Shown here one piece after another: positions 9,683 to 59,734 of a stretch of 64,000 bases of DNA. Source of the DNA: an uncultured Cytophagales bacterium (GTDB taxonomy: Bacteria; Bacteroidota; Bacteroidia; Cytophagales; Thermonemataceae); assembly GCA_937911505.1 (NCBI GenBank), contig CALEMF010000016.1, positions 62,001-126,000 on the forward strand. Reading direction: 5' to 3'. How positions within the stretch are numbered: position 1 is the stretch's first letter; each line of letters opens with the position of its first letter. The translations under genes were made by a program, and so were the position numbers. The notes beneath the pieces are model-generated. The model worked only from the letters and a program-made list of their open reading frames with translations, had not been told where the DNA came from and did not search any database.

Positions 9683-10063
9683 TTACGGTAAGGGAATAAG
9701 CTCGAAGTCAGTCTCTATGAGGTCTTGAAAATCTTTCCCTGCTTCTTCCATATCTTCATCACGTGTGTCATAGTACCATTGTACATTCACTTGAATACCT
9801 TCTTGATGTACCGTTTCTAGCTTTCGAAGCAAGTCCAGTAAACACTTTGAAGAACTAGTGTTAAAGTACTCTAGTCGAAAAATAGCATTGATAATTTTGT
9901 GGTCGGCAGCCTGTTGGTATTCATCTATCCAGTCGAGCAAAGGCTGATAAAAGGCCAAGGCATTTTCAGGAATGGAGCGTCCAGATAGCTCTAGAATACC
10001 TGTATTAGCATCAAAGTTGACGCCTGGTGTGCGGTGTGTTTTCCCTAGTACGATACTTTCCAT
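9683..10063 (-). CDS. SiaC-family regulatory phosphoprotein (DUF1987), copy 1
   Basis: 126 residues. The fold resembles STAS/anti-anti-sigma proteins. The segment EYFNTSSSKCLLDLLRKLE places Thr69 and Ser70-72 at the position where Pseudomonas SiaC is phosphorylated (Thr68) by SiaB and dephosphorylated by SiaA. The acidic stretch YDTRDEDMEEAGKDF near 100-113 is typical of the family. It starts directly after the stop of the SiaB-like gene with no intervening base, so the two must be translated together. No phosphatase or diguanylate cyclase gene lies beside this copy. It is paralogous to the gene at 35949. In Pseudomonas, unphosphorylated SiaC activates the cyclase SiaD; the target here is unknown. 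Confidence 0.85.
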   Translation of the reverse strand: MESIVLGKTHRTPGVNFDANTGILELSGRSIPENALAFYQPLLDWIDEYQQAADHKIINAIFRLEYFNTSSSKCLLDLLRKLETVHQEGIQVNVQWYYDTRDEDMEEAGKDFQDLIETDFELIPLP

Positions 10064-28161: not shown

Positions 28162-29061
28162 ATGAACTTAAAAGATGTAAAGGAATTTGGAAGTATAGAG
28201 ATTTTAGCTAAGCAAATGGTAGAGGGCTTTATTACCGGCCTACATCGTTCGCCTTTTCATGGATTTTCAGTAGAGTTTGCTGAACATAGATTATACAATA
28301 CAGGAGAAAGTACTCGTCATATTGACTGGAAGGTATACGCTAAGACAGATAAACTTTTTATTAAGACCTATGAGGAAGAGACAAATCTCCGTTGTCAAAT
28401 TGTGTTGGATGTTTCGTCTTCTATGTATTATCCGCTCAAAACGAAAGGAAAGCTTATGTTCAGTACGTTGGCAGCAGCAGCACTTACCTACATGTTGCAA
28501 AAGCAGCGTGATGCGATCAGCCTATGTACTTTCGATAACGAAATTCTGGAACATACGCCTTGTAAATCGACTTCTGTACATATACATAAGCTATTTCTTT
28601 TACTTGATGAGCTGCTACAAAAGGAGCATACCCTGCAGGCTACCAATGCCTCAGAGGTACTTCACCAAGTCGCTGAAAAAATACAGAGAAGGTCGCTGGT
28701 AATCATCTTTAGTGATATGTTTGAGAATCTTAACGATACACAAGCACTTTTTGCTGCCTTGCAGCACCTTAAGCATAATAAACACGAAGTACTCCTCTTT
28801 CACGTAGTCGATAAAGCTACAGAAGAGGCATTTTTGTTTGAAGAGCGTCCTTATGAGTTCATTGATTTAGAAAGTGGAGAGAAGCTCAAGCTACAACCCA
28901 ATCAGGTAAGGGCACAGTACCAAAAGCATATGCGGCAATTTAGTAAGGAGCTAAAATTGAAGTGCGGACAGTATAAAATAGATTTTATTGAAGTGGACAT
29001 CAACGAGTCGTTCGATCAAGTGCTATACGCTTACCTAATCAAGCGGCGTAAAATGCATTAA
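28162..29061 (+). CDS. DUF58 domain protein (vWA-like)
   Basis: 299 residues. The DUF58 hallmark is GESTRHIDWKVYAKTDKLFIK near 50-70, followed by a von Willebrand A-like fold with the MIDAS-type D-x-S-x-S in LDVSSSMYY (about 89-97). No membrane segments, matching the shorter DUF58 proteins. Such proteins normally sit beside a MoxR AAA+ ATPase and act with it in chaperone-like complex assembly; no MoxR gene is adjacent here. An imperfect promoter (CTTG, 21 bases, TATCTTTA at 28127-28134) lies upstream. The 3' end overlaps the convergent esterase gene by 27 bases. Confidence 0.88.
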   Translation: MNLKDVKEFGSIEILAKQMVEGFITGLHRSPFHGFSVEFAEHRLYNTGESTRHIDWKVYAKTDKLFIKTYEEETNLRCQIVLDVSSSMYYPLKTKGKLMFSTLAAAALTYMLQKQRDAISLCTFDNEILEHTPCKSTSVHIHKLFLLLDELLQKEHTLQATNASEVLHQVAEKIQRRSLVIIFSDMFENLNDTQALFAALQHLKHNKHEVLLFHVVDKATEEAFLFEERPYEFIDLESGEKLKLQPNQVRAQYQKHMRQFSKELKLKCGQYKIDFIEVDINESFDQVLYAYLIKRRKMH

Positions 29062-29703
29062 CTGCTCAACCAACAGTGCATTCAATTCGTGCTTCCCCTC
29101 AAATTTCTTTACGTCAAAAGTAAGGCCTTTTTCTCTTATTTCGGCTAGGTGCTGCTGGAAATTGGCTTCTGTAAAGAATTCGTCTTGTGTGCCATACACT
29201 ACAGTAACACGTGTCTCTTTCAAAAGAGAAACAAAAGTGGGATAATCTAAATCGTGTGGGAAAGTCCCTGCCCACAGTACCAGTGTTGCCGGACGAGTAC
29301 TCGTTGCAGTAAGCCACCTACAGATAGTAGCGCATCCTTGAGAAAAGCCCAAGATATGCCAGCGGGGAGCTTTACTTGCTGCAGTATTAGTTACTTGTTG
29401 CTTTACCGTTTCTATGTAGTTTACGTAATCTTCGATTTCTTCTTCTCTTAAGTCTTTGGTCATCCACGAGGCTCCTACCCTACCTGAAAAGCCATTCCAG
29501 TAAAAGCGAGAAAGCGCCTCTGGAGCTACAACAAGTTGATGTGCTTGCCTGGCAGCGGTAAAGTGTTTCATAAAGTACTGTGCTAACTGACCGTACCCAT
29601 GGCATACCAGCCAAATATCTGTAATCGCTTCATCCTCTATATCGCCTAGGGTATAATAGCGTGCTGTACGTTGTACGGTTATTTTATTTTCTTTAGCCTC
29701 CAT
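29035..29703 (-). CDS. Predicted alpha/beta-hydrolase (phospholipase/carboxylesterase family)
   Basis: 222 residues. WLVCHGYGQLAQYF near 32-45 supplies the oxyanion region, GFSQGCATICRW holds the nucleophile Ser (G-F-S-Q-G, near residue 119), VVYGTQDEFF the acid Asp and FEGKHELN the His. This is the order of small esterases related to acyl-protein thioesterase. No signal peptide, so cytoplasmic; substrate unknown. Its last 27 bases overlap the convergent DUF58 gene, which limits independent drift of both C-termini. Confidence 0.85.
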   Translation of the reverse strand: MEAKENKITVQRTARYYTLGDIEDEAITDIWLVCHGYGQLAQYFMKHFTAARQAHQLVVAPEALSRFYWNGFSGRVGASWMTKDLREEEIEDYVNYIETVKQQVTNTAASKAPRWHILGFSQGCATICRWLTATSTRPATLVLWAGTFPHDLDYPTFVSLLKETRVTVVYGTQDEFFTEANFQQHLAEIREKGLTFDVKKFEGKHELNALLVEQLMHFTPLD

Positions 29704-29774: not shown

Positions 29775-30224
29775 CTATCTTTTAAATCCTAAAACAGCGC
29801 CTCCACAAAACTCTTTCGTATCGACGAAGGAAAAAGAAATATAATAAATACCCGTCTTCTTACATTCTAATTGAATCGCAGGATAGTAAACCTTCTTATC
29901 TTCTATGAAGCTAGAAGCCACCTTATTACGTTGTGCGTCAAAAAGCGTAATGGCAAGCCCCTTGTTTTCTGCATGCGCATTCGCTACAGCAATGACGTAG
30001 GTAGTACCCGTACTAAATACATAAGAAACCTCTATTACTCTTTTATTCCCTCCTTGCCCGTCCAATTTGTAATTTTTTAGAAAATTAAAGCCAAGAGGCT
30101 TTATCTTTTCTAAGCATTGGGTATTATAGGCTTCTATCACACTGGCTTCGCATTGTGCTTGTACTCTCCAGCTTAATGTGTTCAATATCAATAATAAAAC
30201 AATAAATATACTTCTTCTTTCCAT
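29775..30224 (-). CDS. Small secreted cysteine-containing protein, copy A
   Basis: 149 residues. Signal peptide 1-23 ending VQAQ with cleavage probably before Cys24. Clear paralogue of the protein encoded at 31245-31685: both have a Cys just after the cleavage site, CLEKIKPLGFNFLKNYKLDG / CVQFLKPKGFQFLKSYKIDG, a shared YVFSxGTTY strand, LxCxxTGIYY and an identical ending VLGFKR. Four conserved cysteines suggest two disulphides in the periplasm or outside. It lies 21 bases downstream of a lipoprotein gene and forms a two-gene unit with it. No named family recognised. Confidence 0.75.
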   Translation of the reverse strand: MERRSIFIVLLLILNTLSWRVQAQCEASVIEAYNTQCLEKIKPLGFNFLKNYKLDGQGGNKRVIEVSYVFSTGTTYVIAVANAHAENKGLAITLFDAQRNKVASSFIEDKKVYYPAIQLECKKTGIYYISFSFVDTKEFCGGAVLGFKR

Positions 30225-30245
30225 CCTCTAATGCGCCAATAAACT

Positions 30246-31148
30246 TTATTTGATGATCTCTTTGCGAACTTCTACGATTGTATCGTACAGTGTATTAAAG
30301 TCTGCATCAGAGAAGTTAAGTTTTACATCTGTTGCTTGCTCTACAACAATTTCGTCTCCTTGTTTATTTTCTGTATCTTCTACTTCTCCATATACTAAGC
30401 TAATAGGCTCGTAGGCAGTAGCTATCTTTGAGAACTGCTCGTGGAGATTAGCAATGTGCGTTGACTTATCTTTGTTGTTAGAAAGTAGATTAACAATTTG
30501 TGCCAAAATAATTTTTTGATCTGCAATGTATTCTTTTAGCTCTGTACTATTTTGTGCCTCTTTAGCTACGTAGCAGCTCAGATAAAGTGCTTCGAGCCAA
30601 CCACCCGATACAATATAGACAGTCATCTCACCGCGTTGTTCCTTTTGTAGCTCTTCGTTTACTTGATGTAAATTACTTAAGGTTACTTTCAGGAGCTCTT
30701 CTAGGTCTGTTCCTTCAGAAGTCATTTGTTTAATCTTCTCAAAATCAAAATATTGAGAGATATTAATCCCATCGGCCATTTCTTTAATAGCAGTCAGATA
30801 GTCAATGGCATCTTGATTTTGACTGTATATGTTGGCATACGCTAAATCTGCACTATATACACCTAGATTAAGTGCTTGTTCGTGTGATTTAGAGTAAGAA
30901 GACTTTTTGTTTACATCATTAAGCGCCGATTTGTCGTACCGGATACCTAAATCTTTAATCAGTGCGGCTGTTTCTACGGGGTCTGGGATAGAATTGAGTA
31001 CTTCTATTCCTTTAAAAACACCCCCTGCATTTTCAGTTGTTTCTTCAGTTGTTGTTTCATCGTTTTCTTTTGTTTCGCTAGTCTCTTCTTTACCACCACA
31101 AGCAGTAAAGAGCGTTCCTATCAATACAGCTAAGAATATTTTTTTCAT
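30246..31148 (-). CDS. Lipoprotein of a three-member paralogous family, copy A
   Basis: 300 residues. Lipobox LFTACGG (Cys17), then a Glu/Thr-rich linker and a helical domain. Conserved with the genes at 31781 and 58820: SIPDPVETAALIKDLG, a YDxxxLN segment, then ALNLGVYSADLAYANIYSQNQDAIDYLTAIKEMADG, MTVYIVSGGWLEALYLSCYVAKEAQ, and a C-terminal EVRKEII. The near-invariant N-L-G-V-Y-S-x-D-L-x-Y-A core is the family mark. Lipid-anchored, probably facing the periplasm. It pairs with the small secreted protein downstream. I do not recognise a named domain and give no function. Confidence 0.75.
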   Translation of the reverse strand: MKKIFLAVLIGTLFTACGGKEETSETKENDETTTEETTENAGGVFKGIEVLNSIPDPVETAALIKDLGIRYDKSALNDVNKKSSYSKSHEQALNLGVYSADLAYANIYSQNQDAIDYLTAIKEMADGINISQYFDFEKIKQMTSEGTDLEELLKVTLSNLHQVNEELQKEQRGEMTVYIVSGGWLEALYLSCYVAKEAQNSTELKEYIADQKIILAQIVNLLSNNKDKSTHIANLHEQFSKIATAYEPISLVYGEVEDTENKQGDEIVVEQATDVKLNFSDADFNTLYDTIVEVRKEIIK

Positions 31149-31190
31149 AAGAGGCCTATAGTTTTTACGCTTTGAATAATTAATTGAATA

Positions 31191-31224
31191 ATAAAAGCAG
31201 AAATACGTTTATTTCTGCTTTTAT
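31191..31224 (-). terminator. Terminator between the two copies of the lipoprotein/secreted-protein unit
   Basis: Perfect 15-bp stem (31191-31205 with 31210-31224; arm starts ATAAAAGCAG) with a 4-base loop, 20 bases past the stop of the gene at 31245. Moderately U-rich on the minus side. It separates copy B from copy A. Confidence 0.75.
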
Positions 31225-31244
31225 GTGTTATTACTTTATCATGA

Positions 31245-31685
31245 TTACCTTTTAAATCCTAATACGCTCGCAGCGCAGTAATCACTTCCTTGGTCAAATT
31301 CAAAATTGAGATAATATATCCCTGTTCTTTGGCATTTGAGCTGAATAGGGAAATTTTTCTTGGCTACTGAGCTGTAGCTAGAAGTCATCACCTGCTTACT
31401 TGGTGACAATAAGGTAAGTTTCACTCCTTTGGTGTCCTGTTCGGCATTGGCTAAAGTAATGAGGTAGGTAGTTCCTCTACTAAATACATATGAGTATCGT
31501 ACCGTCTCACGATTACCATTTTTGCCATCGATCTTGTAGCTCTTTAAGAATTGAAAGCCCTTGGGCTTTAAGAACTGAACACATTTTCTTGTATAAGCTG
31601 AAACATCACATTGTGCTTGTACGTTAGTAGCCATTAATAACGTAAACACTGCACCTAGCGCAAGAATTTTTGTAACACTTTTCAT
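31245..31685 (-). CDS. Small secreted cysteine-containing protein, copy B
   Basis: 146 residues with signal peptide ending NVQAQ (cleavage before Cys26). Paralogue of the protein at 29775, sharing the paired cysteines, CVQFLKPKGFQFLKSYKIDG, YVFSRGTTYLITLANAE, CQRTGIYYLNFEFDQG and the ending VLGFKR. The strand pattern suggests a compact beta-sandwich. It lies 95 bases downstream of lipoprotein copy B and is followed by a strong hairpin. Function unknown. Confidence 0.75.
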   Translation of the reverse strand: MKSVTKILALGAVFTLLMATNVQAQCDVSAYTRKCVQFLKPKGFQFLKSYKIDGKNGNRETVRYSYVFSRGTTYLITLANAEQDTKGVKLTLLSPSKQVMTSSYSSVAKKNFPIQLKCQRTGIYYLNFEFDQGSDYCAASVLGFKR

Positions 31686-31780
31686 TTTATCAAATTTTTT
31701 AAATAAACAACCTTCATTTCAATAGGTATCTTCACACTGTTTGTGACAACTCAAAAAACCTGCCAACACTCAAACAAGCA

Positions 31781-32692
31781 TTAGCTTATTATCTGCGATC
31801 GAATGTCGCTTATTTTCTGATAAATGTTGTCAAGATCCTCCTGTGTCATATTAATTACAGGTACTTCTGTTTGTTGTATTGTCAGGATACCATCTTCTAT
31901 TACTTCCTTAGACTCTCCTTTTTCGTATTTTACATCAATATTTTTATAAGCTTGGTCTAGCTCCTCTAGCTCTGCCTTTAACTTCTTCATCTTAGGGCTA
32001 GTCTCGTAATGTCCTAATAACAATGATAACTGATCTAGTGTTACTTTTTGCTCAGCAATACGAATATTAAGTTGATCGTTACTTTGCTTCTGTGCTACAC
32101 TCGTAGTAAGATACACTGCTTCTACCCACGCGCCTGTTAAGATAAGCACGGTCATATCTGAACGATCTTCTTGTTGTAGATATTCGTTCATTCTTTCTAG
32201 GTTGGTAGTAGTCTCTTGAATGAGTTCATCTAGTTTATCGCTGTTAGAGGCTAGTGTCTTGATGGTTTCGTAGTCGAAAAACTTTCCGATATTTAGTCCA
32301 TCGGCCATTTCCTTTACACCTTGTAAAAAGTTGATGGCATCCTGAGACTGGCCGTAAATATTGGCGTAACCTAGATCAGTACTGTATACACCTAAATTGA
32401 GTGCCTTACGATAATCTGTATTGTAGTCAGAAATTTTATCGATACTATTAAGTATGGTAGGATCATACTTAAGTCCTGTCTCTTTGATGAGAAAAGAAAT
32501 CTCTATTGGATTCGGTATGGATTCGATGATACCCTTGATCACATCAGGTGAGAGTTTAGCTCTTCTGGAGTCATCTGTACTCGTCGTATCTTGTGTAGTA
32601 TTGTCGTCATCGTCTGGATCGGCATCTTCTCCACAAGAAAAGAGAAAGAGTATTAAAGTTAAGCTTAGTAATAACTTCTTCATATGATTCAT
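31781..32692 (-). CDS. Lipoprotein of a three-member paralogous family, copy B
   Basis: 303 residues from the first of two in-frame ATGs (the second, at 32683, gives the more usual MKKLLLSLTLILFLFSC start). Lipobox FLFSCGED, acidic Asp-rich linker (DPDDDDNTTQDT), then the helical domain shared with copies at 30246 and 58820: SIPNPIEISFLIKETGLKYD, ALNLGVYSTDLGYANIYGQSQDAINFLQGVKEMADGLNI, MTVLILTGAWVEAVYLTTSVAQ and an ending KISDIRSQIIS. It starts 71 bases downstream of the ABC transporter gene on the same strand. Confidence 0.75.
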   Translation of the reverse strand: MNHMKKLLLSLTLILFLFSCGEDADPDDDDNTTQDTTSTDDSRRAKLSPDVIKGIIESIPNPIEISFLIKETGLKYDPTILNSIDKISDYNTDYRKALNLGVYSTDLGYANIYGQSQDAINFLQGVKEMADGLNIGKFFDYETIKTLASNSDKLDELIQETTTNLERMNEYLQQEDRSDMTVLILTGAWVEAVYLTTSVAQKQSNDQLNIRIAEQKVTLDQLSLLLGHYETSPKMKKLKAELEELDQAYKNIDVKYEKGESKEVIEDGILTIQQTEVPVINMTQEDLDNIYQKISDIRSQIIS

Positions 32693-32763
32693 ACCTAATT
32701 TGAATAGTGTATTGTATATAATATGGTTTTATACTCAATAATAAAAATTTTTTTACAATCGAG

Positions 32764-35700
32764 CTATTTTTTCTTCAAAAAGTTCAATCCGCCAAGTCCA
32801 GCAAATATTTTTCTGAAAGCATCTACGTAAAGTGTAAAATAGAGGAATAGTGTCATTAGCCAAATCACCACAATATTAAACAAATAGGTATCTAAATACC
32901 TCCCAAAGAAGTGTTTACGAGGCGCAAGGAAATGCGTACGATAGTCCAACGCAAAGGTATAGCTATGCGGATCGTGATAAATAGGATCCATCTGTTGCAA
33001 TAGCTTTTCTTCATAGATCACTATTTTCTTGCTTTCGTTAGCACCAGTCATCAAATCGTTCAAGCTCTCGTTAAAGTATTCATTCATAGTTTCAGACAGA
33101 TCAGGATCTTGGTCTTTCTGTACTTGCATTGCTCGGTTAGCAGCATTGAACCTATCTCTGTAGTAAATACCTAGCGAATCATAATAGCTATACAGCTCTT
33201 CCGACATCTGTTTGTCAAAGGTGGCCGTAGTTAGCTTCACGGGTAAGTCTTGATAACGGGTAAACTCAGGGCGTATTTTACGCGCGTTTTGGTATTTTCT
33301 GTCTATTCTTTGTTCTCTTACCAACTCTGTTTTGATTAGAGATAAATCTTCTTCTAAGAGCACTTTTGTAGAATCATTGAGATTTCGGGTGTAATTCATA
33401 CAGCGTACTGTCGCACTTTTCATTTCATCTAACCAGTAGCTTCTTCGGTACTCTGCAATACTTTTCTCTTTCTCAAATATATAGTAGGGAGCCATGTAGC
33501 GATTGTCTTTGAACTGATTGACAGCAATAGATTCAAATCCCCATCGAGAAACCATTAAGTCTGCTAAAAGAGGCACTTCTCCTTTGTCGCTAATGGCACT
33601 ATTAAGTTTATCGAAATTAAAAATGATACCACTTAAAATCATTTGTGGAATCAGTATCAAAGGGATGGTAATATAAACGGTTACTACTGAATTGAATGTG
33701 GACGAAATATTAAGTCCTAAAACATTGGCAAAACAAGAGACAGAAAAGAGCACTAACCAATAGGTCAGGTTCATTCCGTCGACGTCCAAAATAGAGTTTC
33801 CAATTAGTACAAATAGGGCGGTTTGAACGGCTGAAAGTGAGAAGAGGATAATCAGCTTTGAGAAGAAATAACTGTGTCGACTCAGGTTAAGGAAAGCTTC
33901 TCTTTTACGTATTTTCCTATCTTTGATAATCTCTTCGGCACTAACCGTAAGTCCCATAAAAAGGGCTACAAGTACACTAATTAAGATATAAGCTGGTATG
34001 TTGTCATTAAAGCGATACACGTACTCGCCAGAAGGATCATTCTGAAAGCGAATAACAAAAGACAACAAGAAGGCCAATAAAGGAGCTTGCAGTAGATTGA
34101 TAAGTACGTATTGTCTGTTACTGATCTTCGAGAGAAAATCACGGGTAGTGAAGACAATCGTTTGTTTGATTTTATTAGGAAGATCAAGGGCTTTTGGTGG
34201 CTTTTCTGTTTCAGTAGGGACAGGAACAATCGATTCGCTCTGATTTTTCATAAAGCGCTCGTTCCATTGCTGGGGCTTTATTTTACGCTGATTGGTATAC
34301 TCTCCTTTTTCAGTAACTACTTGGTCTTCAAGAATGTCAAAAATCTGTTCTGGGTTAACGTTACCACAATTAAAACATTGACCTTCATCAGACTTGGCTT
34401 GATTGGTCTCCTTTTTAAAATATACTACTGCCTCTACTGGATTACCATAATACACTTGATAACCACCTGTATCTAGAATGATCAGCTTATCAAACATTTT
34501 GAAAATGTCTGAAGAGGGTTGGTGAATTACTACAAAAATGAGCTTCCCTTTCAGGGAAAGTTCTTTGAGTAAATCGACTACATTTTCAGAGTCTCTAGAA
34601 GATAACCCAGAGGTAGGTTCGTCTAGGAAAAGTACAACGGGCTCTCTGATCAGTTCTAGGGCAATATTTAGCCTTTTGCGTTGGCCACCACTAATGGTCT
34701 TAGACAGTACACTCCCTACTTTCAGATGCTTAATATGATCTAAGCCTAAATCGGTGAGCGTTTTCATAACGCGTTCCTCTAGGGCTTGTTCGGAGAGTGC
34801 TTTAAAGCAGAGTTTGGTATTATAGTATAGATTTTGGTAAACGGTTAGCTCTTCGATTAACAAATCGTCTTGTGCTACATAGCCAATAATGCCTTGTGAG
34901 TCCTCTTTATCTTCGTGAATGTCGATCCCATTGACGAGTACAGCACCCTGCGTGGGCTTTTCAATCCCTGCCATCACATTTAGGAGGGTAGTTTTACCAG
35001 CACCACTCGCCCCCATAATACCAATGAGCTTCCCAGCACCTTCTGCTACACTTACATCTCGTAAGCCTACGGTACCGTTGCGAAAGCGAAACTCTAGATT
35101 GAGGGCATTAAAAGAGAGTTTTTGTCTTTCTGACTTCGATAAGTAGGAGTTGGTAATATCGCTGTAATAGAAAGAGTCTCCGTATTGTGTTCGTAAAATA
35201 CTACCTCTTGCATACAGGTAAATGGCGTCTTGTTCCATCACGAAGTCGTCTAGCTTTACGTTATCGGTACCTGTGTACTTTACAAAGTACATATCGGCCT
35301 CCTTGATACGCAAAAAGACCAGCTTCCCGTCAAGTGACTCTACTTGTATGTGTTTCATCCCTTCTATATTGGGCATATATCCACTACTTACCGTCAGGAT
35401 TTCTGCATAGGTAAATATTTCGCTAGACTCCTTGACAACAAAATCGCGGATTACCTCGTATACGTTGCTAAGCTGTAGCTCGGCGGCGGCAGTTTCGATC
35501 ACTTCCATCCGTCTTTTGGTAGTGCGCCGATCGCAAGCTACTAGTTCCATCATTTTTACGAGGACTAGTACTTTTTGATCTAAGGTGAGTGACTTATTGA
35601 TTTTTCGACACCTTCCCAATACTTTCACAGCGAACTTTTGAAAAGCTCGGTCCTGCGCTTCTTGGGCCATTTCCTTTTCATCTCCTTTGGGTGAGAGCTT

Positions 35701-35868
35701 AGCTGAGATCTCCTCATACTTAGAAAGGTAAGTATGTACTGCTTCTTGAGCTACATTTTTATTAAAGTATCTCTCTACAAACTGCCTCTCTTTTTCGGAC
35801 GTACCGCCATCTTGCATAGTAGTCATGGCAAATAGCTCGGCGAATGCGTCTAGTATTTCCTCACTCAT
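32764..35868 (-). CDS. ABCG-like ABC transporter (ATPase and permease fused) with TerB-like N-terminal domain
   Basis: 1034 residues. Residues about 1-145 are helical and acidic like TerB/tellurite-resistance domains (DAFAELFAMTTMQDGGTSEKERQF). About 150-250 is a beta-rich segment (ESLDGKLVFLRIKEADMYFVKY). The nucleotide-binding domain has Walker A GASGAGKTT near 289, signature SGGQRKR near 393 and Walker B VVLFLDEPTSG near 411. A cysteine pair (CFNCG) follows. The permease part begins near 590; between its fifth and last helix lies an unusually large soluble loop (about 755-985). It resembles ABCG-type exporters, ATPase first then membrane domain. It sits between siaC and the lipoprotein unit on the same strand. 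Substrate unknown. Confidence 0.87.
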   Translation of the reverse strand: MSEEILDAFAELFAMTTMQDGGTSEKERQFVERYFNKNVAQEAVHTYLSKYEEISAKLSPKGDEKEMAQEAQDRAFQKFAVKVLGRCRKINKSLTLDQKVLVLVKMMELVACDRRTTKRRMEVIETAAAELQLSNVYEVIRDFVVKESSEIFTYAEILTVSSGYMPNIEGMKHIQVESLDGKLVFLRIKEADMYFVKYTGTDNVKLDDFVMEQDAIYLYARGSILRTQYGDSFYYSDITNSYLSKSERQKLSFNALNLEFRFRNGTVGLRDVSVAEGAGKLIGIMGASGAGKTTLLNVMAGIEKPTQGAVLVNGIDIHEDKEDSQGIIGYVAQDDLLIEELTVYQNLYYNTKLCFKALSEQALEERVMKTLTDLGLDHIKHLKVGSVLSKTISGGQRKRLNIALELIREPVVLFLDEPTSGLSSRDSENVVDLLKELSLKGKLIFVVIHQPSSDIFKMFDKLIILDTGGYQVYYGNPVEAVVYFKKETNQAKSDEGQCFNCGNVNPEQIFDILEDQVVTEKGEYTNQRKIKPQQWNERFMKNQSESIVPVPTETEKPPKALDLPNKIKQTIVFTTRDFLSKISNRQYVLINLLQAPLLAFLLSFVIRFQNDPSGEYVYRFNDNIPAYILISVLVALFMGLTVSAEEIIKDRKIRKREAFLNLSRHSYFFSKLIILFSLSAVQTALFVLIGNSILDVDGMNLTYWLVLFSVSCFANVLGLNISSTFNSVVTVYITIPLILIPQMILSGIIFNFDKLNSAISDKGEVPLLADLMVSRWGFESIAVNQFKDNRYMAPYYIFEKEKSIAEYRRSYWLDEMKSATVRCMNYTRNLNDSTKVLLEEDLSLIKTELVREQRIDRKYQNARKIRPEFTRYQDLPVKLTTATFDKQMSEELYSYYDSLGIYYRDRFNAANRAMQVQKDQDPDLSETMNEYFNESLNDLMTGANESKKIVIYEEKLLQQMDPIYHDPHSYTFALDYRTHFLAPRKHFFGRYLDTYLFNIVVIWLMTLFLYFTLYVDAFRKIFAGLGGLNFLKKK

Positions 35869-35948
35869 AGAAGGGTATAGTCAAATGAATGATCAGTTTG
35901 ACTAAGGTTAAGTTTTAATAAAAGCCTAAATGGCTATATGTAATAATA

Positions 35949-36311
35949 TTAGTAAGTTTTAAACTCAAAAGGAACGTCTACTAAATCAGCAAACTCAGTA
36001 CCTGCTTCTGACATATCTTCATCATCTTCGTGGTAATACCAAGAGATTTTCGTACCTGTCACGTCTTCTAACTTAGAGAGTATATCTAAAATTAGCTTGG
36101 AAGAAGCGGTATTAAAATACTCTAGCTTGAAGGTAAAGAGTGTTTCGGAATTAGGCGACTGTCCGTAGGATTCTAACCATTCCAATACAGGCTTGTAAAA
36201 TTCAGCCGCATCTTCTGGTAGGGAGCGTCCTGAGATTTCAAATATGGAGTTCTCTTTATCTAAGATAATTTTTGGACTTTCCTCAGTGCCTTCTAAATTG
36301 ATGATTTCCAT
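35949..36311 (-). CDS. SiaC-family regulatory phosphoprotein (DUF1987), copy 2
   Basis: 120 residues. The predicted phosphorylation site is Thr68 in EYFNTASSKLILDIL, the same number as in Pseudomonas SiaC; the acidic YHEDDEDMSEAGTEFADL near 95-112 is family-typical. Paralogue of the protein at 9683. Known family role: phosphorylated by SiaB, dephosphorylated by the PP2C phosphatase SiaA, and able to bind an output protein only in one state. Here kinase (36385) and a PP2C phosphatase (37051) lie directly upstream, so the full switch is encoded together; the output partner is unknown, no GGDEF protein being present in the window. Confidence 0.88.
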   Translation of the reverse strand: MEIINLEGTEESPKIILDKENSIFEISGRSLPEDAAEFYKPVLEWLESYGQSPNSETLFTFKLEYFNTASSKLILDILSKLEDVTGTKISWYYHEDDEDMSEAGTEFADLVDVPFEFKTY

Positions 36312-36384
36312 ACACTTATATAATAATTTTTTTTCCTAAAAAAACGGTAAAGGTTTAATGTAAATAAATTGTTGATCTAAGGTT

Positions 36385-36942
36385 TTAATCACCACCTGCT
36401 CTTGGAACCACAGTTCTTAGGGCAAAGAAAGAGAATTCGTCGTTGATAGGTTCAAAGTTGTATTCTAGTTTCTCACCAGATTTTCTGGCCATATCTACAA
36501 AACCCAATCCAGCTCCCCCTTTATCCGATAGCTCTCCTCCTTTTAGGATTTCTTTATAAAGTCCTTTTAGGCCATCTTTATCTAGAGAGTTCACCTTGTC
36601 GAGTTTAGTTTGGATACGTTCTATAACGGGATTACGAACAGGATTACCCGAAGTGATAATGTATTCGTTTGCTTGCTTACCCAACATAAAGATTGCGTTG
36701 TTTCTGAGTCCATCATCGTCTTTTTCATTGAGGTCTTCCGCATGTTTTACAATATTTTGTAAGCACTCTACCATCACGTTAAAAACTTTTCGCTTTGTAC
36801 TAGCTGACTCCCCAATGGAGTCCATGTTTCTTTCTGCCATGGCTAGCACAGATTTGGTAATCTCTTGGGTAAACTCTCCTTCATAAACAATGATGAGATT
36901 ATGCGCCAACATGGTTTTGTGCAACTCATAAACATACTTCAT
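36385..36942 (-). CDS. SiaB-family protein kinase (DUF6272), copy 2
   Basis: 185 residues, GHKL ATPase fold. N-box in VMVECLQNIVKHAED (Glu, Asn) and glycine box SDKGGAGLGFVDMARKSG near 137-154. Expected to phosphorylate the SiaC protein encoded 73 bases downstream. It is paralogous to the gene at 10064. It lies between the PP2C phosphatase gene and siaC, in the order phosphatase-kinase-target. Confidence 0.86.
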   Translation of the reverse strand: MKYVYELHKTMLAHNLIIVYEGEFTQEITKSVLAMAERNMDSIGESASTKRKVFNVMVECLQNIVKHAEDLNEKDDDGLRNNAIFMLGKQANEYIITSGNPVRNPVIERIQTKLDKVNSLDKDGLKGLYKEILKGGELSDKGGAGLGFVDMARKSGEKLEYNFEPINDEFSFFALRTVVPRAGGD

Positions 36943-36974
36943 AATATCTTGTTCTTTTTAATGAATTGTAAGGG

Positions 36975-36993
36975 GCTTAATTAAGGATTAAGC
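36975..36993. repeat. Small inverted repeat between phosphatase and siaB genes
   Basis: GCTTAAT (36975-36981) and ATTAAGC (36987-36993) with a 5-base spacer. The minus-strand side lacks a U-tract, so it is more likely an operator or a leader hairpin than a terminator. Confidence 0.3.
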
Positions 36994-37050
36994 GTAATTT
37001 TGGGCGTTAAATTAGTACTATTTTCTTAAAATTAAAATTTTGCTCAAGAT

Positions 37051-40000
37051 TTAAAATTTAATACCAATCGCAAGAATATCGTCGATTTGTTTTACTTCTC
37101 CCCCTTTTGTCCAATCACTTAGTTGGTCTTCAAATGTACGATTCAAGTCTGACATAGTAGCATTCAAATGACTTTTCATGATTTCTCTGATCCTTTTAGG
37201 GGAGAATTTTCGGTTATCAGGTCCTCCAAACTGATCAGGTAAGCCATCTGAGAACAGCAAAGCAAAATCGCCTTCTTTGTATTGGATAGTTATATTATCA
37301 AAATTAGTACGGTTACGGTACTGCGCACCTCCAATAGGGAATTTATTTCCTTTCACTTCTTCTAGCTCAGCTTTATCGAGATGTAAGTAGTACAGTGGTC
37401 GATGCGCCCCAGCGTATTCTAGTTGTTTTGCCTTTAAGTCTACCTTACAAAGAGAAATATCCATTCCATCTTTCGTAGCAGAGTCGCCCGTATCTTGCCG
37501 CAGTGTTCTTGTTACTTGTTCGTCCAGCGTATCCAAAATTTCTCCTGCTGTGGGATTTTTGCGCGTATCAATAATATTATTTAATAGGAAGTAGCCAATC
37601 AGTGACATCAAGGCACCTGGTACACCATGTCCAGTACAGTCTACACAAGCAACATATACGTTGCCGTTCTTCTCCACTAGCCAAGGGAAGTCACCACTTA
37701 CTACATCTTTAGGTTTAAACATAATGAAAGAGTCACTAAAGAAGCGTTGCAGAATATCAGTATCAGGCATGATGGCCTCTTGAATACGCTTGGCGTAGTT
37801 GATACTGTCTGTGATTTTCTTGTTGGTATCTTGAAGTTGTTGTTCTTGAAGTTTACGTTCTGTAATATCGTGTGCTACGATCAAAACTGATTCCATAGAA
37901 CCATCTTCGTTGAACTCAGGGATACCATTTACCTGCATAATCCGCTCTCCAATCACAGAGGGGAATTCCATTTCGTAAGAGTGCTTGCTTGTTCTTCTCT
38001 CTACAATCTGTATGGTACTTAGCCAGCTATTAATTACTGGTTCGGGGAGTAAATCGGTACTCAAAGATTTTTGTAGGAACTGATCTTTGTTCTTTCCAGT
38101 GTAGTTTTCAATCGTTGGATTAATGTAGAAAACTTTTCCTTCTTTATTCATCCGTGTGATCAAGTCAGGCGAATTCTCTGAAAGAGCCTGCATTTGACCT
38201 CTCATCCGCTCTTCTTTCTCTGCACGTCTTCTTTCTGTAATATCTCGGATATTCAATACAATACCATTGATGACCGGGTCAGCGAGTAGGTTGGTTCCAG
38301 TGGCTTCTAGCCAGATGCTTTCGCCTGACTTCTTCCGATAGCTAAACTGAATGGTAATACGCTCGTCTGGATACCTACGTAGGTCTTCAAACATCTTCTT
38401 ATAGGCTTCTACGCCTTGCTCGATGTGTACAATGTCGTCTGTACCGATCATTTCTTCTGCTTCGTACCCCAAGATTTTCTCTACCGAAGGGGAGATATAG
38501 CGAATCGTACCATCTTCTTCATAAATGGTAATTACCTCAGAGGCATTCTCTAGTAGAATCTGTGTTTTACGCTGCTCGTTTTCCACCTGTTGAATTTGGA
38601 ACTCTAGTTCCTTGTTGGATTTTTCTAGCTGTTCCTGCGTCATGGCCATCTCACGGGCATTTTGCTGCAGTGTTACCTCACGTTCTTTTAGATCTTGGTT
38701 GAGCTGCTCTGATTCAGTCAGTAGCTTTCTAGTACGTGTAGTTACCCGAATATTAAAGATGGTACGCGCGATAATCTCACTAATTTCTTCTACGAATTTT
38801 ACTTCACGAGCGCTAAATCGCTCAAAGCCTGCTAGCTCTATCACCCCGTATACTTCTGTGTCGTTTGTTACTAGTGGTGTGATGAGGATACACTCTGGTT
38901 TATTTTCACCCAAAAGCCCAGAGGTGATGGTCATATAGTCTTCTGGAATTTCTGTTCTCAGGATAGTATCCCGTTCAATGGCCGCTTGTCCTACCAGTCC
39001 TTCAGCAAACTTAAATTTAGCTTCAAGGTATTTCTTTTTGTTATAGGCATGGCTCGCTACCATTTCGATGGTAAGTTCATCCATCTTCCTAAAATCTTCT
39101 CCCATCACTACATAGAAGGCTCCCTGTACGGCATTGACTTTTTTGACTACATAAGCTAAGATTTGCTCTCCTAGTTCTGCCAGTTCGTTGGTAGAGCGAA
39201 GGATGTCACCTATTTCTGCTACCCCTGTTACAATCCAGTTACGTTCATCGTCGGCCTGTGCCGAATTCAAGATACTATTCCGCATCGAAATAAGTGCATT
39301 TCCTAGAATGTCTTTTTCACTGGCTGGTTTAAACTCAGCATCAAAGTCTTTATCTCCAATACGGCGCGCAAAACTAGCGGTATTGTACAGGTTTTGTACC
39401 AAGTCGTTGATTTGCTTGGTCATCTGGCCTATTTCATCTTCAGAAGACTGATCCAAGCGTGGCGGCAGCTCTCCTCTTCCTAGTGCACTCACTGTCTCTT
39501 TCAGTGCACCCAACGGACGGGTAAGGAACTGAGAAAATATAATCCCTATGATAAAGGCCGCTAAGATGGTAATTCCTCCTGCTACTAAGAATCTAAAGAG
39601 GAGTCCATCCATAGGAGCATAAATCTCTGAGGTATCTATTTTTACCACTACGCCCCAGTCAAGCGAAGGAATATACCTGGTAACGGCAAGGGTGTTTTCG
39701 TTACGATAGTCGGATGCTTCTACTACGACACGTTCTCCAGTTACCGCTTGCTCAATGGCATAGTTAAGTTTGGTATCTCCAACAATACCTGCCTCTCTAA
39801 GTCCTTTTACTTGTGCGCTATCAGGGCTATGTCGAAGTGTGCTGAGGTATTTTACTTTATTGTTTTCTTGGGTTTGTACAATTAGAATCTCTCCAGAGTT
39901 TCCTAGCCCTGTTCTGTCTTGTGACAGACTATCAATTTTACGCATATCAATCTCATAGACTAATACGCCAATATTATCTAGGGAAGTAGTCTCTGGATCG

Positions 40001-40680
40001 ATACGCTTTACTGGTGCATAGGCGAGAATTACAGCCTTGTTACTTTGTATGAACACCTTACTAAAGTAGGTAGAATCTACCTTACCTTTCGCAACAACGT
40101 TGAAGTCGGTAGCATTTTCCTTAAATAGGCTGCCAGCTTCTTGAGGGGTATTACTTGTATCGGCAATCTCTACTACTTTTCCCTCTGTATCCAAGAGGTA
40201 GATATTGCTAAGCCCATATACAGATTGTATTGTTTGAATAGCGTTGTCTATCTCTTCTTTGCGCTCGTTGAAGGTAAGTTGCTCTAACTGGTTGGTGAAG
40301 GCTTCACTAAGACTATCTTCAGAGCCAAACCCTATTTCTTCTGCTACGTTGTCAGTTGTATCTAACTCTAATGCATACAAGTCATACTCATCTTGGTTGT
40401 AATTATCATAAGGGGAAACAATAGCTTCTAAATCTTCTAGCTTATTCTTGATTACATTGAGTTGCTGCCCCATTTCTATACCCGACTGTATCTCACTAAA
40501 AAACGTTTTAATCTTTTGCACTTTTACATCTGCAATGGCTTGCATTTGGCCTACGTAACGTTCCTTAATGGTTCCTTTACTTTCTTCAAAAGCAATTATA
40601 CTGACGGCTGCTACTGAAATGAGTACCAACAACAGTACGATAAGGGTAATCTTTGTTCCTATCTTCGCTCTATTAAACAT
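37051..40680 (-). CDS. Membrane sensor PP2C/SpoIIE phosphatase (Cache-HAMP-GAF-PAS-PAS-SpoIIE), SiaA-like
   Basis: 1209 residues. Membrane helix at 10-30, extracytoplasmic dCache-like sensor about 31-355, second helix about 361-385, HAMP about 386-440 (TRPLGALKETVSALGRGELPP), GAF about 490-650, coiled coil about 655-705, two PAS domains about 708-825 and 828-955, and a C-terminal SpoIIE/PP2C phosphatase about 965-1209. Metal-binding aspartates are kept: SGDF, VDCTGHGVPGALMS, FSDGLPDQFGG and the final DDILAIGI; the usual SGDFYW reads SGDFPW. It should dephosphorylate a Ser/Thr phosphoprotein, most simply the SiaC encoded two genes downstream, in response to an external ligand. First of the phosphatase-kinase-target trio. 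Confidence 0.92.
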   Translation of the reverse strand: MFNRAKIGTKITLIVLLLVLISVAAVSIIAFEESKGTIKERYVGQMQAIADVKVQKIKTFFSEIQSGIEMGQQLNVIKNKLEDLEAIVSPYDNYNQDEYDLYALELDTTDNVAEEIGFGSEDSLSEAFTNQLEQLTFNERKEEIDNAIQTIQSVYGLSNIYLLDTEGKVVEIADTSNTPQEAGSLFKENATDFNVVAKGKVDSTYFSKVFIQSNKAVILAYAPVKRIDPETTSLDNIGVLVYEIDMRKIDSLSQDRTGLGNSGEILIVQTQENNKVKYLSTLRHSPDSAQVKGLREAGIVGDTKLNYAIEQAVTGERVVVEASDYRNENTLAVTRYIPSLDWGVVVKIDTSEIYAPMDGLLFRFLVAGGITILAAFIIGIIFSQFLTRPLGALKETVSALGRGELPPRLDQSSEDEIGQMTKQINDLVQNLYNTASFARRIGDKDFDAEFKPASEKDILGNALISMRNSILNSAQADDERNWIVTGVAEIGDILRSTNELAELGEQILAYVVKKVNAVQGAFYVVMGEDFRKMDELTIEMVASHAYNKKKYLEAKFKFAEGLVGQAAIERDTILRTEIPEDYMTITSGLLGENKPECILITPLVTNDTEVYGVIELAGFERFSAREVKFVEEISEIIARTIFNIRVTTRTRKLLTESEQLNQDLKEREVTLQQNAREMAMTQEQLEKSNKELEFQIQQVENEQRKTQILLENASEVITIYEEDGTIRYISPSVEKILGYEAEEMIGTDDIVHIEQGVEAYKKMFEDLRRYPDERITIQFSYRKKSGESIWLEATGTNLLADPVINGIVLNIRDITERRRAEKEERMRGQMQALSENSPDLITRMNKEGKVFYINPTIENYTGKNKDQFLQKSLSTDLLPEPVINSWLSTIQIVERRTSKHSYEMEFPSVIGERIMQVNGIPEFNEDGSMESVLIVAHDITERKLQEQQLQDTNKKITDSINYAKRIQEAIMPDTDILQRFFSDSFIMFKPKDVVSGDFPWLVEKNGNVYVACVDCTGHGVPGALMSLIGYFLLNNIIDTRKNPTAGEILDTLDEQVTRTLRQDTGDSATKDGMDISLCKVDLKAKQLEYAGAHRPLYYLHLDKAELEEVKGNKFPIGGAQYRNRTNFDNITIQYKEGDFALLFSDGLPDQFGGPDNRKFSPKRIREIMKSHLNATMSDLNRTFEDQLSDWTKGGEVKQIDDILAIGIKF

Positions 40681-40691
40681 AGCTACAAGCT

Positions 40692-41522
40692 TTATTCTTC
40701 TACATTAATTGGGTGGGTAGCTAGATGTGCTGCTAGCAAATCAGCCACTTTTTCAATGTATAATTTATGATTTTCTTTGATCTTTTCAAAAGAAGCCACT
40801 TCTATCACTCCCAGTGTTTCTTTTTCTTCCCTTCTAATGGGCGCAATAATTAAGTAACGCGGGGAAGTATTGCCCAGCCCTGATACGACTGTCATATACC
40901 CTTCTGGTATGCTATTAATGAGTACTGTTTTACCATCCTTGGCTACTTGGCCAGCCAATCCTTCTCCAAACTCATACATGACCTTCTGGCTATCTGGGGT
41001 ATGGTAAGCATAGCCCGCCTCTAACTCTATAAACTGGAGTCCATGCTTAGAAGTAGCAACATAGATGGCTCCTTGGGCTGCTTGTATATGGCTACAAATA
41101 TGTGAGAGGGTTTCATTGAGTACTTTCTTGGTATTAAAGGCGTGGCTTTCAATCAAATCCTTTACTTTTCGCACCTCTTTTTCTGCTACATTTTCGCTTT
41201 CTTCATCTACCTCTACTTCTCTGGTAGTACCATCTTCATTTCTTTCTACATATACTACTTTGGCCTTATTTCCCTTTACAAAATAGCGTGACCCAAGTAT
41301 TTGGAACATCACTGCTAGCAATCCCATAGAAAAACCTATTCCTACGAATACGCTTATGTTAACGGCTACGGGAGTTACTTTTGCTTTTTGGTTAATGTCT
41401 AAAATACCAAGGGCTTGTGCGATATCTTCTTCTAGTGTATAAAGGTCGTAAGCGACTTTTGCCATCGCTACGATGAAAAGTATAATGAAGACAATGCTTA
41501 AGGTTTTATAGAGTACTCTCAT
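40692..41522 (-). CDS. Membrane-anchored GAF-domain protein
   Basis: 276 residues. Two membrane helices (about 7-25 and 55-80; VFVGIGFSMGLLAVMFQIL), then a short acidic segment and a GAF domain (about 130-265). The GAF resembles that of the adjacent phosphatase: EFGEGLAGQVAKDGKTVLINSIPEGYMTVVSGLG against KFAEGLVGQAAIERDTILRTEIPEDYMTITSGLL, so the two probably share an ancestor or ligand class. No catalytic output domain. It lies 11 bases upstream of the phosphatase gene and 3 bases downstream of cheB-like, within one transcript. Confidence 0.82.
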   Translation of the reverse strand: MRVLYKTLSIVFIILFIVAMAKVAYDLYTLEEDIAQALGILDINQKAKVTPVAVNISVFVGIGFSMGLLAVMFQILGSRYFVKGNKAKVVYVERNEDGTTREVEVDEESENVAEKEVRKVKDLIESHAFNTKKVLNETLSHICSHIQAAQGAIYVATSKHGLQFIELEAGYAYHTPDSQKVMYEFGEGLAGQVAKDGKTVLINSIPEGYMTVVSGLGNTSPRYLIIAPIRREEKETLGVIEVASFEKIKENHKLYIEKVADLLAAHLATHPINVEE

Positions 41523-41525
41523 GGT

Positions 41526-42122
41526 TTATGCCACGTATTGTTTATGTAAGGTAAGTAAAAAATTGATAATTTGATTAGTTTTATAAGTATAGTCTACAGA
41601 AGTAATATCTAAGGCAGCCTTGGGCATGGTATCGATAAGGCATTCGGCAGGGTCTTGAATTAAGGTGATTCCTCCTCGCTCGTGGATGTATTTCATCCCT
41701 ATTGCTCCATCTTTATTGGCGCCTGACAATAGTACACCAATGAGCTTGTTTCTAAATACATAAGCAGCCGTCTGAAAGGTAATGTCTATCGCAGGGCGAG
41801 AGTTGTTGACCATTTCTTCGGTAGACATCGTAAAGGTATTCCCCAGCTCTACAGCCAAGTGATAGTTGGCAGGAGCCAGATAGATCCCTCCTCTTCTGAT
41901 ACTTTCTTTGTCTTCTGGCTCTTCTATTACTTTAGCACTTTTAATATTCAACGCTTCTACGAAGCCTGTTCGTACATGCTTAAGTCGATGTAAGCACATA
42001 ATGATGGGGATGGGAAATTTCTCAGGAAGTGCTTGTAAAATAGCACTGATCACTTGAAAGCTCCCGGCTGAACCACCTATTACAATGGCTTTGTACTGAC
42101 TATGTAGATGTTCTTGGTTCAT
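41526..42122 (-). CDS. CheB-type methylesterase domain protein without receiver domain
   Basis: 198 residues, corresponding only to the CheB catalytic domain. The triad is Ser18 (GGSAGS), His45 (CLHR) and Asp138 (GANKDGA). The response-regulator domain that normally gates CheB is missing, and no methyl-accepting chemoreceptor or CheA is encoded nearby. Such stand-alone CheB proteins occur with CheR in Bacteroidota signalling loci. It may demethylate or deamidate glutamyl residues of a non-chemotaxis target, perhaps the neighbouring sensor. 51 bases from cheR, 3 bases from the GAF gene. Confidence 0.88.
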   Translation of the reverse strand: MNQEHLHSQYKAIVIGGSAGSFQVISAILQALPEKFPIPIIMCLHRLKHVRTGFVEALNIKSAKVIEEPEDKESIRRGGIYLAPANYHLAVELGNTFTMSTEEMVNNSRPAIDITFQTAAYVFRNKLIGVLLSGANKDGAIGMKYIHERGGITLIQDPAECLIDTMPKAALDITSVDYTYKTNQIINFLLTLHKQYVA

Positions 42123-42173
42123 TCAAATTTACTCGAAAAAAAGCTTAAAGATTGAGACATTTGTACAGGTGTT

Positions 42174-42998
42174 TTAATCTTTAATTTTCTTATAAATTTT
42201 TTCTTCGTTATTAACTACTATAAATTTATTCGCTATTTCACACCATATCAATGATTCTTTTGCACCTATCGCCAAGTAAGCATATTTGTGCATACTAGCG
42301 TGAAAAAGCTTTAAAACTTGATTTTGTAGTGTCTGATTAAAGTAGATCATCACGTTACGACACAGTACTAAATCGAACTTTGAAAAAGGATCTCCAATGA
42401 CAAGATTATGCTCTCGGAATTCTACATTTTCTACTAAATCCTTGTTCATAATGGCTTTCCCTCCCTCTTCTCGATAGTAGTCGGTCAAGGAGCTTTTTCC
42501 TTGAAACTGAATATAGTTCTTACCATTCAGCTCCATATTTTTCATACTGTACATGCCTTGGCGTGCCCGGTATAGGATGACGTGGTCTATATCAGTAGCA
42601 ACGATCTTTACCCTATCCAGAATGCCCATCTCTTTCAAAAGAATTGCTATAGAGAAAACTTCTTCTCCAGAAGAACAGCCTGCATGCCAAATACTGAAAG
42701 TATCGTTGTTGAGTAAGATATTTGGAATGATATCATCGCGAAGCTCTCTCCAGAAGGTTGGATCACGAAACATTTCTGTTACGTTCACCGTAATTTCAGA
42801 GAGAAATTCTTTGAAAAAATTTTGGTCAGCCTCTAGCCTTTTAACGAGCGCATCAACAGAGCTAAGTTTGTAGAGTTCAATGACGCGCTGAATACGGCGC
42901 TTGAAGGATGACATGGCATAGTTGGTAAAATCATAATCGTGACTACTTTGAATAATCTCAGTTATTTTTCGTAGATCCGCTATTTCAATTTCTTGCAT
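42174..42998 (-). CDS. CheR-type protein-glutamate O-methyltransferase
   Basis: 274 residues. N-terminal helical CheR domain (about 5-65; NYAMSSFKRRIQRVIELY), SAM-binding segment IWHAGCSSGEEVFSIAILL near 98-116, and the C-terminal DLVLCRNVMIYF motif. Uses S-adenosylmethionine to methylate glutamates of chemoreceptor-like proteins. There is no TPR extension. First gene of the long minus-strand cluster; no chemoreceptor is encoded in the window, so its substrate is unknown. Confidence 0.9.
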   Translation of the reverse strand: MQEIEIADLRKITEIIQSSHDYDFTNYAMSSFKRRIQRVIELYKLSSVDALVKRLEADQNFFKEFLSEITVNVTEMFRDPTFWRELRDDIIPNILLNNDTFSIWHAGCSSGEEVFSIAILLKEMGILDRVKIVATDIDHVILYRARQGMYSMKNMELNGKNYIQFQGKSSLTDYYREEGGKAIMNKDLVENVEFREHNLVIGDPFSKFDLVLCRNVMIYFNQTLQNQVLKLFHASMHKYAYLAIGAKESLIWCEIANKFIVVNNEEKIYKKIKD

Positions 42999-58819: not shown

Positions 58820-59734
58820 CTATACTTTTTCAGGGTGTATAATTAACGCACGTATCTTTTCTATCTCTTCAGTAATGAGTTGAAGTTGCTCTTCTGTGAT
58901 GGTAAGGTCTACGATATCGTGCTGGATGGTCACAATCATATCATCTACTATTTCGGTAGTCGGCTCCTGGTATTGGTAAGTAATGGTAATGTCTTCGTAA
59001 ACGCCTAATAGTTTCTCAAAATCATCTCTAAAAGTATTGATTACGGCGTTGTCATCGTAAAAGGAGATGTACATCGAAAGGTTGGACAAGTAAATTTTTT
59101 GCTCGGCTATTTGTTTACGTAGTTCTTCAGAAGGGCTAATTGCATAGACCTGACAGCAGATATGTAAAAACTCTACCCAAGCGCCCATAGACACTAAGAA
59201 GCTGTATTCTACCTTATCTTTTTCGACCGCAAAGTATTGATGGTATTGGTCGTGGCTAAGTTGCTGAATAATATCGTAGAGTAGGGAGTCGGCATCGGGA
59301 TTAAAGTGGATTAGACGCTCCTCTTCAGGCACTACTTCTAGCTGTCTTGCAAAAGCATTAATGGTTTTTACGTAACGTTCGTTATAGAGTGTATCTCTAT
59401 TTATGCAAGCATACATCAAGTCTGTACTGTACACACCTAGGTTCATCGCTTTCTTGATGTTGGATGTGTAAATGTTGATATTGATGGTGGTATCTAGTAA
59501 CTCTTGGTGATAGGTTTGGTCTATTTCTTCTAGCAGTACAATTACCTCGGGTAAGAAATCTGAAACCAACGGGATGAGTTCTTCTATAGGCTCTTCATCA
59601 GCAAAGGTATAGCCTGTAGTATCTTCTGAGGTTTCCTCTTGTGATAGGTTGGAAGAAGACTCCTTACAGCCATAAAGCCAACTAATACTTACCAATAAAT
59701 ATACGTATATGCTTTTCCTCATGATAGTGATCAT
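58820..59734 (-). CDS. Lipoprotein of the three-member paralogous family, copy C
   Basis: 304 residues from the first ATG; a second ATG four codons on (59722) gives the usual MRKSIYVYLLVSISWLYGC signal with lipobox Cys. The mature part has the family core AMNLGVYSTDLMYACINRDTL, a LLDTTINI segment, FLVSMGAWVEFLHICCQVYAIS matching the MTVYIVSGGWLEALYL of copies A and B, and the ending EEIEKIRALIIHPEKV. More divergent than A and B are from each other, and without the small secreted partner. The DUF3109 gene lies 16 bases upstream on the same strand, so it may share a transcript. Function unknown. Confidence 0.74.
   Translation of the reverse strand: MITIMRKSIYVYLLVSISWLYGCKESSSNLSQEETSEDTTGYTFADEEPIEELIPLVSDFLPEVIVLLEEIDQTYHQELLDTTININIYTSNIKKAMNLGVYSTDLMYACINRDTLYNERYVKTINAFARQLEVVPEEERLIHFNPDADSLLYDIIQQLSHDQYHQYFAVEKDKVEYSFLVSMGAWVEFLHICCQVYAISPSEELRKQIAEQKIYLSNLSMYISFYDDNAVINTFRDDFEKLLGVYEDITITYQYQEPTTEIVDDMIVTIQHDIVDLTITEEQLQLITEEIEKIRALIIHPEKV

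Follow-up and report, generated by a model that had tools for sequence, protein, structure and literature searches.

Which protein is controlled by a Sia-type partner switch when no diguanylate cyclase gene lies beside it? This question is raised by a 64,000-nucleotide stretch of DNA from an uncultured Cytophagales bacterium (GenBank assembly GCA_937911505.1, contig CALEMF010000016.1, positions 62,001 to 126,000 of the forward strand), the whole of which we call the window. A block of eleven genes occupies positions 29775-42998 on its minus strand in the order cheR, cheB, a GAF-domain gene, siaA, siaB, siaC, an ABC transporter gene, lipA, secA, lipB and secB. We give a probability of about 0.5 to the reading that this block is a conserved signalling-export operon of Bacteroidota, in which the Sia switch would gate an ABCG-type envelope exporter and CheR and CheB would tune the sensor. 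The first-pass annotation had described eleven uninterrupted genes in this order, and all eleven open reading frames were confirmed at unchanged coordinates, together with their domains and gaps.

In Pseudomonas aeruginosa, the phosphorylation of SiaC at T68 is set by SiaA and SiaB (PMC7647112), and SiaC activates the diguanylate cyclase SiaD (PMC8457831). The siaA-like gene of the window (37051..40680, minus strand, as are all genes of the block) encodes a sensor phosphatase with HAMP, GAF, PAS, PAS and SpoIIE/PP2C domain matches. Its layout is an extracytoplasmic dCache-like region (weak dCache match), a transmembrane segment, HAMP, GAF, a coiled coil, two PAS domains and the SpoIIE/PP2C part. 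By sequence, P. aeruginosa SiaA (6k4e, E 1e-31) is the only protein of solved structure related to the PP2C part. The Asp and Gly residues of the metal site known from SiaA (PMC7647112) align with conserved residues of the window sensor, and the Mg-site residues are thereby retained.

The siaB-like gene (36385..36942) encodes a GHKL kinase (DUF6272) that matches the SiaB family model NF038262 at 2e-53, with 180 bits against a cut-off of 85; the score for the narrower SiaB equivalog model was under its cut-off. The N-box (E59/N63) and the glycine box are conserved, and the only solved relative by sequence is P. aeruginosa SiaB (6kko_A, E 2e-12). The siaC-like gene (35949..36311) matches Pfam SiaC (PF09345, 3.5e-39), and its only solved relatives by sequence are P. 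aeruginosa SiaC (6kko_C/6k4f, E 4e-11). Its score for the SiaC equivalog NF038265 was 76.7 of 150, under the cut-off. Thr68, the predicted phospho-acceptor, shows a conservation of 95% or more among 27 operon SiaC proteins. The earlier view that phosphatase, kinase and phospho-target are all encoded, with Thr68 in the right place, is thus borne out by family matches and active-site residues. At this level the three assignments hold, and a SiaC phosphorylation cycle is predicted.

The absence of a diguanylate cyclase, noticed earlier in the block itself, extends further. A search for GGDEF domains found none in the genome of origin, nor in any relative of the order that carries the operon. The sole GGDEF match among the order genomes came from G036, which itself has neither the transporter nor SiaC. 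A diguanylate cyclase was therefore rejected as the SiaC target in the operon carriers of the order. Since the known effector is excluded in the carriers of the order, a different one must serve there, and the claim of an output other than a cyclic diguanylate (c-di-GMP) enzyme is strengthened. It has been suggested that DUF1987 (SiaC) proteins are modulators of adjacent proteins (PMC8457831).

The adjacent protein in the window is the transporter, and we compared its surroundings in 129 loci, comprising transporter loci from same-order genomes and 80 named ones drawn from public genomes. Genes in the relatives' loci were mapped by searches and by profiles built from the order. In 70 of the 129 loci, the nearest same-strand gene of the set upstream of the transporter was siaC, at a median gap of 88 bases. 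The complete run of cheR, cheB, siaA, siaB, siaC, ABC, lipA and secA was found in 45 loci, and in nearly all of them cheB and siaA are separated by the GAF gene. Thus, the conserved unit consists of nine kinds of gene. The 45 loci belong to Cytophagales, Bacteroidales (Salinivirgaceae and others), Marinilabiliales and one metagenome-assembled genome labelled Chlorobiota, although such labels may be wrong. Carriers include many gut and water Bacteroidota. In Bacteroidales and Marinilabiliales, cheR is often present twice in the unit, and a second PP2C protein resembling SiaA is often encoded as well. In L155, L160 and L162, a further SiaA-like protein is encoded 3′ of the conserved operon, and a SiaC gene lies on the opposite strand beside a 366-aa SiaB-like protein.

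The immediate neighbours of the block in the window were found in only 0-2 of the 70 Sia-ABC loci, with the exception of a downstream hydrolase. Because the order recurs in 45 loci while the immediate flanks do not, chance clustering was rejected. The first-pass annotation had proposed gene-order comparison as the way to refute its grouping, and the grouping came through it; the transporter and the lipoprotein do recur beside the Sia trio. Furthermore, among 59 genomes (the genome of origin and its relatives), the transporter was present in 40 and SiaC in 42: both were present in 39, the transporter only in one, SiaC only in three and neither in 16 (Fisher p 1.4e-10, shared ancestry being uncorrected). 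The lipoprotein and the transporter were present in the identical 40 genomes. In an even draw across the phylum with a strict cut-off, the transporter was found in 5 of 297 genomes. The conserved adjacency and the co-occurrence support the transporter and its envelope proteins as the candidate output of the switch, as the first reading had suggested.

The transporter gene (32764..35868) encodes a TerB-like helical region (residues about 1-145), a beta domain (about 150-250), an ATPase domain, a linker with a CxxC motif and an ABC-2 membrane domain. A helical extracytoplasmic insert of about 195 residues lies at about 790-985. ABC_tran and ABC2_membrane were both matched. TerB is matched weakly by the window protein and at E<=0.01 by 15 of 19 orthologues, the best of which reaches 5e-8. 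In the AlphaFold model (pLDDT 86), the best PDB matches were human ABCG5/G8 and ABCG2; the score against TIGR00955 was 269 bits, under the cut-off of this subfamily. As judged from the model, the protein is an ABCG half-transporter, with the nucleotide-binding domain preceding the transmembrane domain and with a TerB-like domain at its N-terminus. The two cysteines of the linker (C498/C501) are near-invariant across the transporter family.

From these elements the following pathway may be drawn. The SiaA-like membrane sensor phosphatase would strip the phosphate from SiaC Thr68, and the SiaB kinase would re-phosphorylate SiaC. The phospho-state of SiaC would then control the neighbouring ABCG-type transporter. 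In Pseudomonas the partner is a diguanylate cyclase; here, SiaC would most likely dock on the cytoplasmic N-terminal TerB-like/beta region of the transporter. At the envelope, the pathway would end in the transporter, the lipoprotein with its helical fold and the small secreted protein; the substrate moved through the inner membrane would probably be hydrophobic or bound to the envelope. The sensor may be tuned by CheR, the receiver-less CheB and the GAF protein, possibly with adaptation by methylation of SiaA. The single transcript, the binding of SiaC to the transporter, the direction of control, the action of CheR and CheB on SiaA and the substrate are the parts of this scheme that we infer. 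In its most specific form, SiaC gates the transporter directly, and methylation enzymes borrowed from chemotaxis provide an adaptation memory for the PP2C sensor in chemoreceptor-free bacteria; this form is proposed tentatively, at well under even odds.

Several observations weigh against this scheme. TerB-ABC transporters occur without Sia genes in 26 loci, and G020 possesses a transporter without any SiaC; the TerB domain is thus not a dedicated dock for SiaC. cheR and cheB are absent from some Sia-ABC loci. A candidate methylation motif of the sensor family, described below, is lacking in the sensor encoded by the window. In addition, a single clade of operon SiaC proteins was marginally rejected (p-AU 0.0485), in a tree where long branches are present.

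A possible, if doubtful, alternative is that the switch and the transporter are only expressed together, under one promoter because both serve one condition, and that SiaC acts on an unlinked partner such as an anti-sigma-like effector. The Sia-free transporters fit such an arrangement. Other SiaC proteins in these genomes are mostly encoded in stand-alone SiaB-SiaC pairs; these are common and have no transporter near them, so that other SiaC targets exist. The adjacency of siaC and the transporter gene, however, survives where cheR/cheB, the GAF gene or the lipoprotein gene vary. Moreover, the operon SiaC proteins form a distinct cluster apart from the stand-alone ones (6 label changes versus 32 in shuffled data). 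These two results argue against co-expression alone.

One stand-alone pair lies in the window itself (9683-10594, minus strand). Its two genes abut directly, with pyrG and a gene for a 2Fe-2S ferredoxin-like protein as neighbours, and no SiaA-like sensor gene adjoins them. Outside the window, on contig C16 of the same genome, one frame of 347 aa (L131:9557-10600, plus strand) fuses a kinase of the SiaB kind to a SiaC-like target. G002, G004, G027 and G042 likewise contain long SiaC frames, of 324-343 aa. A fusion of SiaC with the transporter was sought as Rosetta-stone evidence, and the long SiaC frame examined proved to be a SiaB-SiaC fusion instead. SiaC is expanded in some genomes, with 42 copies in G052 and 19 in G018.

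The lipoprotein and the small secreted protein raise a second alternative. lipA (31781..32692) encodes a lipoprotein of an unnamed family, in which the lipobox cysteine (Cys20) is nearly invariant. Its model (pLDDT 88) is all-helical with one beta hairpin and had no PDB match at E<=0.001; no consistent Pfam match was detected among 56 members of the family. secA (31245..31685) encodes a small secreted protein with conserved cysteines. By its sequence pattern this family is predicted to be beta-rich, and its 25 members likewise had no consistent Pfam match. Second copies follow as lipB (30246..31148, 37% identical to lipA) and secB (29775..30224, 43% identical to secA). The duplication noted at first sight is real in the window. 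It was found mainly in relatives of the same family and is not a general feature of the unit. The placing of the two families in the Sia unit stands in part: they recur in it, and they also follow the transporter where Sia genes are absent. In the 26 Sia-free loci, the lipoprotein gene lies 5′ of the transporter gene. The more general core is therefore the pair of transporter and lipoprotein, with which the Sia block is associated in only one part of the transporter family.

Accordingly, the transporter and lipA might together be a machine for delivering lipoproteins or surface proteins, with the small secreted protein as its cargo. Surface-export signals of Bacteroidota carry acidic residues after the lipid cysteine, and the lipA orthologues are somewhat acidic there (2.8 of 12 residues, versus 13% overall). 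This mild acidity and the persistence of both families beside Sia-free transporters are in its favor, whereas the ABCG fold is like that of exporters for small molecules and sterols. We consider lipoprotein sorting rather unlikely. A lone third member of the lipA family (28% identity) is encoded at about 58820-59734 on the minus strand of the window, far from any transporter.

We next consider the upstream genes. The first gene, cheR (42174..42998), encodes a protein-glutamate methyltransferase (Pfam CheR 5.6e-43, CheR_N 2e-8), and in the relatives' operons it also lies 5′ of cheB. cheB (41526..42122) encodes a methylesterase domain alone (CheB_methylest 2e-47), which is receiver-less and retains Ser18 of the GGSAG motif, His45 and Asp138. 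The third gene (40692..41522) encodes a membrane-anchored GAF protein (GAF_2 2e-11). Its GAF domain is homologous to that of the sensor (34% identity over 131 aa, E 1e-21, SiaA residues 508-638). Because of this homology, the two proteins may recognise the same kind of ligand.

By Pfam, neither CheA nor CheW is encoded among the operon genes. No MCPsignal match was detected in nine genomes of the order that possess operon cheR and cheB (G010, G021, G026, G028, G030, G043, G052, G053 and G057), nor in 13 further named carriers with both genes, giving at least 22 such genomes. Because some of the assemblies are incomplete, any one absence carries little weight; the pattern, however, is seen repeatedly. 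Since CheR and CheB are kept in the operon of genomes without methyl-accepting chemotaxis proteins (MCPs), their substrate there is most likely not an MCP. The first reading is refined in that the two enzymes remain part of the unit where the genome encodes no chemoreceptor. There, the SiaA-like sensor, which carries HAMP and a coiled coil, is the likeliest substrate. In the coiled-coil linker, a Glu/Gln pair followed two positions on by two small residues ([AST][AST]) was found in 42 of 64 family members, versus at most 22 in shuffled sequences. We do not use this motif as proof of methylation, because the window sensor lacks it and such linkers may be common in sensors of Bacteroidota.

It could instead be supposed that CheR and CheB serve conventional chemoreceptors elsewhere and that their place in the operon is a historical accident. 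The genome of origin does encode one MCPsignal protein, on contig C102, and a cheR lies on the same contig. Carriers of the Bacteroidales type without operon cheR/cheB possess more MCPs than those with them (16-26 versus 0-20, p 0.013, 4 versus 16 genomes); such richness is compatible with a supply of the enzymes from elsewhere. However, the 22 MCP-free genomes keep both genes in the operon, and the MCP of the genome of origin already has its separate cheR. We regard this explanation as unlikely.

A last proposal, that the transporter beta domain is FHA-like and reads phospho-Thr68 of SiaC, is very improbable: the sole PDB sequence matched by the beta-domain profile was MEK1 5yyx (E 0.011), aligned at an LNG motif in what we take to be the FHA domain of MEK1, but the comparison with FHA profiles from relatives was not significant (probability 1.7%, P 0.028), no Pfam FHA match was detected in 16 transporter members, the hallmarks GR, SxxH and first NG were not seen, and FHA is neither confirmed nor claimed here.

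The edges of the block are marked by terminator-like hairpins on the minus strand. The upstream edge is formed by one that carries a T-run and separates dciA from cheR (43195-43162, -18.2 kcal/mol, z -3.9). The other, with a T-rich tail, lies 22 bases 3′ of secB (29753-29726, -19.4 kcal/mol, z -6.4). Within the block, the gaps are 51 bases for cheR-cheB, 3 for cheB-GAF, 11 for GAF-siaA, 108 for siaA-siaB and 73 for siaB-siaC. Downstream they are 80 for siaC-ABC, 71 for ABC-lipA, 95 for lipA-secA, 96 for secA-lipB and 21 for lipB-secB. Since hairpins stand at both edges, cheR to secB is likely a single transcription unit, as predicted from these features. A third hairpin, a perfect 15-bp stem in the secA-lipB gap (31224-31191, z -9.1), could lower the expression of the second lipoprotein/secreted pair. 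Beyond the downstream terminator, an alpha/beta hydrolase gene (29035-29703, minus strand) belongs to a family found in 19 of the 70 Sia-ABC loci. In a PADLOC scan for anti-phage systems, in which the sensor phosphatase was outside the scan, the transporter gave ATPase-domain matches only. As these are limited to a generic domain, identity as a defence system was rejected.

A literature search, with most subscription journals outside its coverage, found no paper that joins SiaC/DUF1987 with CheR/CheB or with a TerB-ABC transporter, and none on this gene set; this is consistent with the earlier remark that no described system with the full set is known. The parts of the switch are of the known Sia kind. 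What is new is the proposed output, together with the adaptation enzymes that accompany the switch. If the proposed reading is true, the Sia partner switch, known for the activation of a c-di-GMP enzyme, is present in Bacteroidota as a widespread branch whose output is membrane transport. CheR/CheB adaptation may then target a phosphatase sensor rather than a chemoreceptor, and two conserved, unnamed families of envelope proteins would be placed in a testable pathway.

How does the operon compare with known systems? The CheR and CheB of chemotaxis share their catalytic domains and active-site residues with those of the window. In contrast to them, CheB is receiver-less here, the operon has no genes for a chemoreceptor, CheA or CheW, and the carriers are often MCP-free. 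In an Rv1747-like FHA-domain ABC transporter, FHA precedes the nucleotide-binding domain; for the window beta domain, the observations bearing on this are the single MEK1 match, the lack of a Pfam FHA match and the FHA-profile comparison given above. The hmp partner switch of Nostoc (HmpU/V/W; PMC8256260), likened here by description, shares a phosphatase/kinase/STAS-type switch whose direct target is unknown. Unlike for the window operon, no ABCG transporter is mentioned in the review of that system (PMC8256260). ABCG5/G8 and ABCG2, the best fold matches, share the nucleotide-binding domain placed before the ABC-2 membrane domain. Unlike them, the window transporter possesses N-terminal TerB-like and beta domains, the CxxC linker and the large extracytoplasmic insert.

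The closest system is SiaABCD of P. aeruginosa (PMC7647112, PMC8457831). Both encode in one cluster a HAMP-bearing PP2C sensor phosphatase, a kinase and a DUF1987/SiaC target with Thr68, and the closest solved relatives of all three window proteins are SiaA, SiaB and SiaC themselves. Unlike SiaABCD, the operon and the carrier genomes of the order have no diguanylate cyclase, GAF and PAS domains are added to the sensor, and cheR, cheB, a GAF gene, an ABCG transporter, a lipoprotein and a secreted protein are added to the switch.

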